This document shows, piece by piece, positions 24,370 to 64,000 of a stretch of 64,000 nucleotides of DNA (within the stretch, counting starts at the first letter, position 1; every line of letters starts with the position of its first letter). The stretch is taken from assembly GCA_964019135.1 (NCBI GenBank), contig OZ025253.1:4779059-4843058 (forward strand). The letters are read 5' to 3'. The stretch is from Arenicola marina. Lineage: Eukaryota > Annelida > Polychaeta > Arenicolidae. The notes below the pieces were generated by a model. It did no database searches. It was not told where the DNA came from and saw only the letters and a list, made by a program, of their open reading frames with translations. The translations under genes were made by a program, and so were the position numbers.

Positions 24370-64000
<39,631 letters not shown>

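Follow-up and report, generated by a model that had tools for sequence, protein, structure and literature searches.

A GH9 cellulase-family gene of Arenicola marina probably encodes a protein no longer able to digest cellulose, or is slowly decaying

Animal GH9 genes are usually called digestive cellulases on sequence alone. Here, we describe a gene from Arenicola marina whose visible exons encode the C-terminal half of a GH9 paralogue of animal type (endo-beta-1,4-glucanase family) that has lost the residue protonating the leaving group, with its exon structure and most of the conserved positions retained. It lies in a 64,000-nucleotide stretch (contig OZ025253.1 of assembly GCA_964019135.1, positions 4,779,059 to 4,843,058), henceforth termed the window. 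With the donor acid replaced by Asn and a cleft Trp replaced by Thr, the known inverting mechanism of the family makes ordinary GH9 hydrolysis by this protein very unlikely. As read from the DNA, the gene's product has probably ceased to digest cellulose, or else the gene is in slow decay.

Exons were located with a termite GH9 query (tblastn) and with an HMM built from 53 GH9 domains; of 54 loci considered at that step, three (L021, L025 and L037) gave no domain. Residues are numbered after the query, termite NtEG (structure 1ks8). All five exons lie on the minus strand. Exon A (63416-63566; tblastn, HMM and, for the exon peptide, Pfam at 8.3e-11) has AG and GT at its ends and covers NtEG residues ~207-258; its acceptor is our choice, as the open frame extends further upstream. 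Exon B (61931-62075, LLLYQLTGG...; HMM E 1.3e-9) is bounded by AG and GT and is in phase with A and C. Exon C (25853-26018), with the first signature, was placed by tblastn, Pfam and splice phase; exon D (24370-24560), with the second signature, by these and by alignment. A probable last exon E (23610-23638), encoding ALLDHILTV and a stop, is suggested by an acceptor, phase and stop that are present in both copies of a duplication described below. Exons A to D, with AG/GT ends, compatible phases and no stop, join into 217 residues that match the C-terminal half of GH9 (PF00759, 2.5e-51; profile positions 212-443 of 444), the score of 175.8 bits exceeding the curated cut-off of 27.7 bits. Descent from GH9 is further indicated by the H-x-R of the first signature in exon C, and the best PDB match of the joined protein is 4zg8 (2.1e-66). 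Beyond the window end lies the N-terminal half (the equivalent of NtEG 1-206), to which the catalytic Asp pair belongs. Exons B and C are ~36 kb apart, and the interval contains satellites as well as a 200-N gap flanked by an inverted repeat; the case for one gene therefore depends on the splice phases and on how the pieces abut along GH9.

The 200-N gap (51957-52156) is flanked by two arms in inverted orientation (48678-50686 and 52648-54633, 89% identical), which represent either a genuine palindrome or a join made in assembly. Arrays of 42-bp tandem units, similar in unit and opposite in orientation, occupy 31897-35354 and 57570-59027, and a 38-bp minisatellite of ~163 copies (6.2 kb) spans 6397-12595. 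A reverse transcriptase domain (PF00078, 2.7e-35) lies in a plus-strand open frame of 514 aa (28442-29986), in the stretch that separates exons B and C. At the left window edge, a gag-protease frame on the minus strand (2-1282) runs off the window; an LTR-like end recognised by eye at 1252-1377 (TG...CA, then TGGTGTCAGAAGTG) belongs to its element. Searches of the window returned no Rfam family at gathering score and no tRNA, phage records searched for relatives gave no match, and none of 30 stretches with a pattern in viral contigs was confirmed as a relative.

The donor-site codon in exon D is AAC (Asn; 24413-24415, minus strand), at the position of E411 in the 432-aa NtEG query and of E424 in Thermobifida fusca Cel9A. 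Exon D is recognised as GH9 by Pfam (3.1e-12), as is its sister exon (1.4e-10), and it aligns without gaps to the termite and earthworm C-termini, whose Glu stands opposite the Asn. Codon and gapless alignments thus confirm the initial annotation, which placed an Asn at the Glu position of the second GH9 signature (D-x4-Y-x3-E-x-[STA]-x3-N-[STA]), and all other positions of that pattern are satisfied on reading the sequence. A displaced donor Glu is ruled out by the gapless alignments around the site, and no Glu lies near it in the alignments to the termite and earthworm proteins. The same AAC, read in the window sequence, occupies 1821-1823 on the plus strand in the sister exon, as had been stated. 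This exon lies inverted in a copy of ~3 kb; being on the opposite strand, it is rejected as an alternative or mutually exclusive exon within one transcript. Among five GH9 stretches found at E < 1e-3 by an HMM search of the window's six-frame ORFs of at least 15 aa, two are the exon D copies, both with Asn; outside the N gap at 51957-52156, this search yielded no copy of exon D with Glu. N-glycosylation of the new Asn was also considered and rejected, as the context Asn-Val-Ala reads as no sequon.

Two of the replaced residues are close to invariant among prokaryote GH9s. Donor Glu is present in 135/135 distinct prokaryote GH9s with the donor region aligned and the cleft Trp in 134/135, with His in the remaining one; this sample, reduced from 186 fetched loci to 148 with the donor region aligned and then to 135 distinct, is weighted towards good family matches, and the 38 loci without an aligned donor region may hide variants. 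At the cleft Trp (NtEG W300, which the common W-G-x-L-R motif equates with Cel9A W313) the window gene has ACC (Thr; 61950-61952, minus strand), and at the Tyr five residues past the donor (NtEG Y416; Cel9A Y429) it has TTC (Phe; 24398-24400, minus strand). Of the features expected in a catalytically competent GH9, then, the Glu donor of the second signature and the cleft Trp are absent. The cleft Arg and Tyr (Cel9A R317, Y318) and the HHR region are retained; Cel9A numbering is that of the structure chain, with equivalence by shared motifs. The initial annotation described this one exon; the gene proves larger, with the Trp to Thr and Tyr to Phe changes in addition.

The 38 loci set aside in this survey (e.g. 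L119-L128, L168-L180) are GH9-like matches, some of which stop near profile position 380-395 while others span only ~140-270; they are perhaps distant families. In the genome of locus L052, GH9 matches fall in separate pieces (G008:C18:9080-10092 and G008:C60:22321-23571) with unequal open-frame lengths, as if they were broken genes or erroneous contigs.

To place the window protein among relatives, we compared it with three animal enzymes: that of the termite, that of the earthworm Eisenia fetida (3wc3), and 4zg8. The last is given as the GH9 endoglucanase of Perinereis brevicirris in a passage of PMC6038386. Identity over the visible half is 51.6% to 4zg8, 47.4% to 3wc3 and 42.3% to 1ks8. 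All three share the signatures with the window gene, and in a tree of 53 rows they group with it against 49 prokaryote rows (100/97), which assigns it to the animal GH9 group as distinct from the prokaryote rows; the tree comprises animal and prokaryote rows with no plant or protist GH9, and the order among animal rows is unresolved in it. The three enzymes have donor Glu and cleft Trp, whereas the window gene has Asn and Thr. Its end branch of 1.26 is 1.4 to 4.3 times those of 4zg8 (0.29), the earthworm (0.68) and the termite (0.88), long rows being placed less certainly. With Thermobifida fusca Cel9A/E4 (1js4) it shares the family as well as R317 and Y318, while E424, W313 and Y429 have become Asn, Thr and Phe.

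Divergence extends beyond the active site. The window protein departs at 17/67 columns that are at least 94% conserved, compared with 7 in each of the three animal enzymes and a next-largest value of 9; in an earlier alignment (53 other rows, including L050, a fragment) it departed at 16/66. In the wider 135-row set some of these columns are more variable (e.g. N308, G392), but the donor and cleft Trp columns are not. A codon check of 14/17 departures in the window gene, omitting columns 341, 342 and 364, at which animal enzymes are likewise divergent, showed that 6/14 need two or three base changes: three each for W300T and N308G, two each for A224L, F311M, F329W and E411N. A rough neutral simulation that changed 16 to 27% of such columns gave a multi-step share of 6 to 11% and an intact-frame probability between 7e-5 and 2e-8; this intactness model used the intron indel rate (possibly inflated by low-complexity runs), an illustrative residue list and assumed factors of 0.045 for stops and 0.85 for disabling indels. 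Multi-step departures together with intact frames argue against a recent break followed by mere drift, with the loss of Glu undated within the branch.

Exons D and E lie in the right arm of an inverted duplication (21871-24851, minus strand, from tblastn and arm alignment). Its left arm (1394-4341, plus strand, from tblastn and arm alignment) holds the Asn-bearing sister of exon D (1676-1866, plus strand; tblastn, Pfam, arm alignment) and that of the probable exon E (2470-2498, plus strand; ALLDHMMAV and a stop, from acceptor, phase and stop). Arm similarity stops at 1394, adjoining the LTR-like stretch at 1252-1377, and an interruption of the sister gene is thus possible, as is its continuation beyond the window. 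Between the arms, 151/2602 aligned sites differ outside exon D, where 23 indels also occur; within exon D the figures are 15/191 sites and no indel (P of no indel 0.18). Given AAC in both copies and flanks that differ to this degree, an Asn older than the duplication, as initially proposed, is the simplest reading. The proposal that its presence in both copies signals selective retention is not supported in that form: a shared Asn is no proof of selection, and since the duplication D and E have diverged no more slowly than the non-coding flank.

Counted over D and E, the copies differ by 15 nonsynonymous changes (162.7 sites) and 4 synonymous ones (53.3 sites), a ratio of 1.24. If both copies evolved neutrally, 9.4 nonsynonymous changes would be expected (P = 0.058 for at least 15), and one neutral copy with the other at omega 0.3 gives P = 0.0017. 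Ratio and counts thus reveal no purifying selection since the duplication, a statement that covers the last two exons only, and a slight excess of nonsynonymous change over neutrality is not excluded. Changes in exon D are clustered, with 14/105 sites in the first 35 codons versus 1/84 in the last 28, which hold the second signature (P = 0.002, an unplanned test). Under neutrality, the chance of finding D and E intact in both copies is 0.11, so that intact frames there are no strong evidence; for all five exons of the main copy the probability since the duplication is 0.03 under a rough model. The suggestion that the Asn does not mark fresh decay is supported by four exons that are intact and in phase and by the multi-step departures.

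The paralogue could be a relaxed, decaying gene that became functionless by about the time of the duplication, with both visible copies drifting since and the exons still open for lack of time. In favour of such drift are nonsynonymous changes in D and E not below the neutral expectation, an exon D that differs at 15/191 sites beside a flank at 151/2602, frames that neutrality would leave intact in both copies at P = 0.11, and a retroelement adjoining the sister copy. We regard this account as plausible, at somewhat less than an even chance. It sits less easily with the five intact main-copy exons (P = 0.03 in the rough model), with intact splice dinucleotides, and with two three-step and four two-step replacements, whose accumulation takes a long time during which the frame must be preserved. 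On these grounds a long-kept pseudoenzyme is the likelier of the two, though not decisively.

That the protein still works as a glycosidase, with a different carboxylate serving as the acid or with a substrate whose leaving group departs without one, would be compatible with the retained equivalents of Cel9A R317 and Y318, with the HHR region and with an Asp at the signature position that, on reading the sequence, has a second Asp close by. We consider this highly improbable in view of a donor Glu found in 135/135 distinct GH9s, of the accompanying loss of the cleft Trp and of alignments that show no Glu near the site. The reconstruction itself could also mislead, if the exons came from two genes or a misjoined scaffold and the half protein were not one gene. 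The ~36 kb between B and C, with satellites, the 200-N gap and its flanking inverted repeat, is the kind of setting in which this might happen; yet the four pieces follow directly on one another along GH9 without overlapping, and their phases are compatible, which makes such an error improbable, and the Asn finding depends on exon D alone.

The reading we favour is thus a pseudoenzyme. Following the inverting GH9 mechanism, a protein that lacks the leaving-group acid should not hydrolyse beta-1,4-glucans at a useful rate. Intact frames and multi-step replacements suggest long retention, and we judge it an evenly balanced proposition that a GH9 paralogue was kept for long as a non-hydrolytic protein while its active site changed. 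Such a protein would work, or would have worked, without hydrolysis; a glycan or a partner might, for example, be held in its old cleft. Constraint may have become weaker or redirected at about the time of the duplication or later, the visible last-exon copies diverging at about the neutral rate.

Among known systems, passages of a stick insect paper name GH9 active sites as two Asp and one Glu (PMC4221708), and four oyster GHF9 proteins are described, in another source, as having catalytically important residues in common (PMC11805347). No report of an animal GH9 lacking the catalytic Glu was recognised among the matches listed in the open-licence literature. The GH18 chi-lectins (PMC3662789) have a chitinase fold without chitinase activity, and some are reported to bind carbohydrate. 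Their family is unrelated to GH9, and the likeness is one of working mode, not of membership; a binding role for the window protein would be drawn from this analogy. By the same analogy, we tentatively suggest, as a possibility short of an even chance, an animal GH9 lineage that turned non-hydrolytic, with a glycan-binding or regulatory role and with duplicates diversifying under weak or positive selection. If this is true, the lineage would be the GH9 counterpart of the GH18 chi-lectins, and the window gene would illustrate reuse of the GH9 fold for another purpose. A paralogue that keeps its exons without its acid would mean that cellulase counts include proteins that digest nothing.
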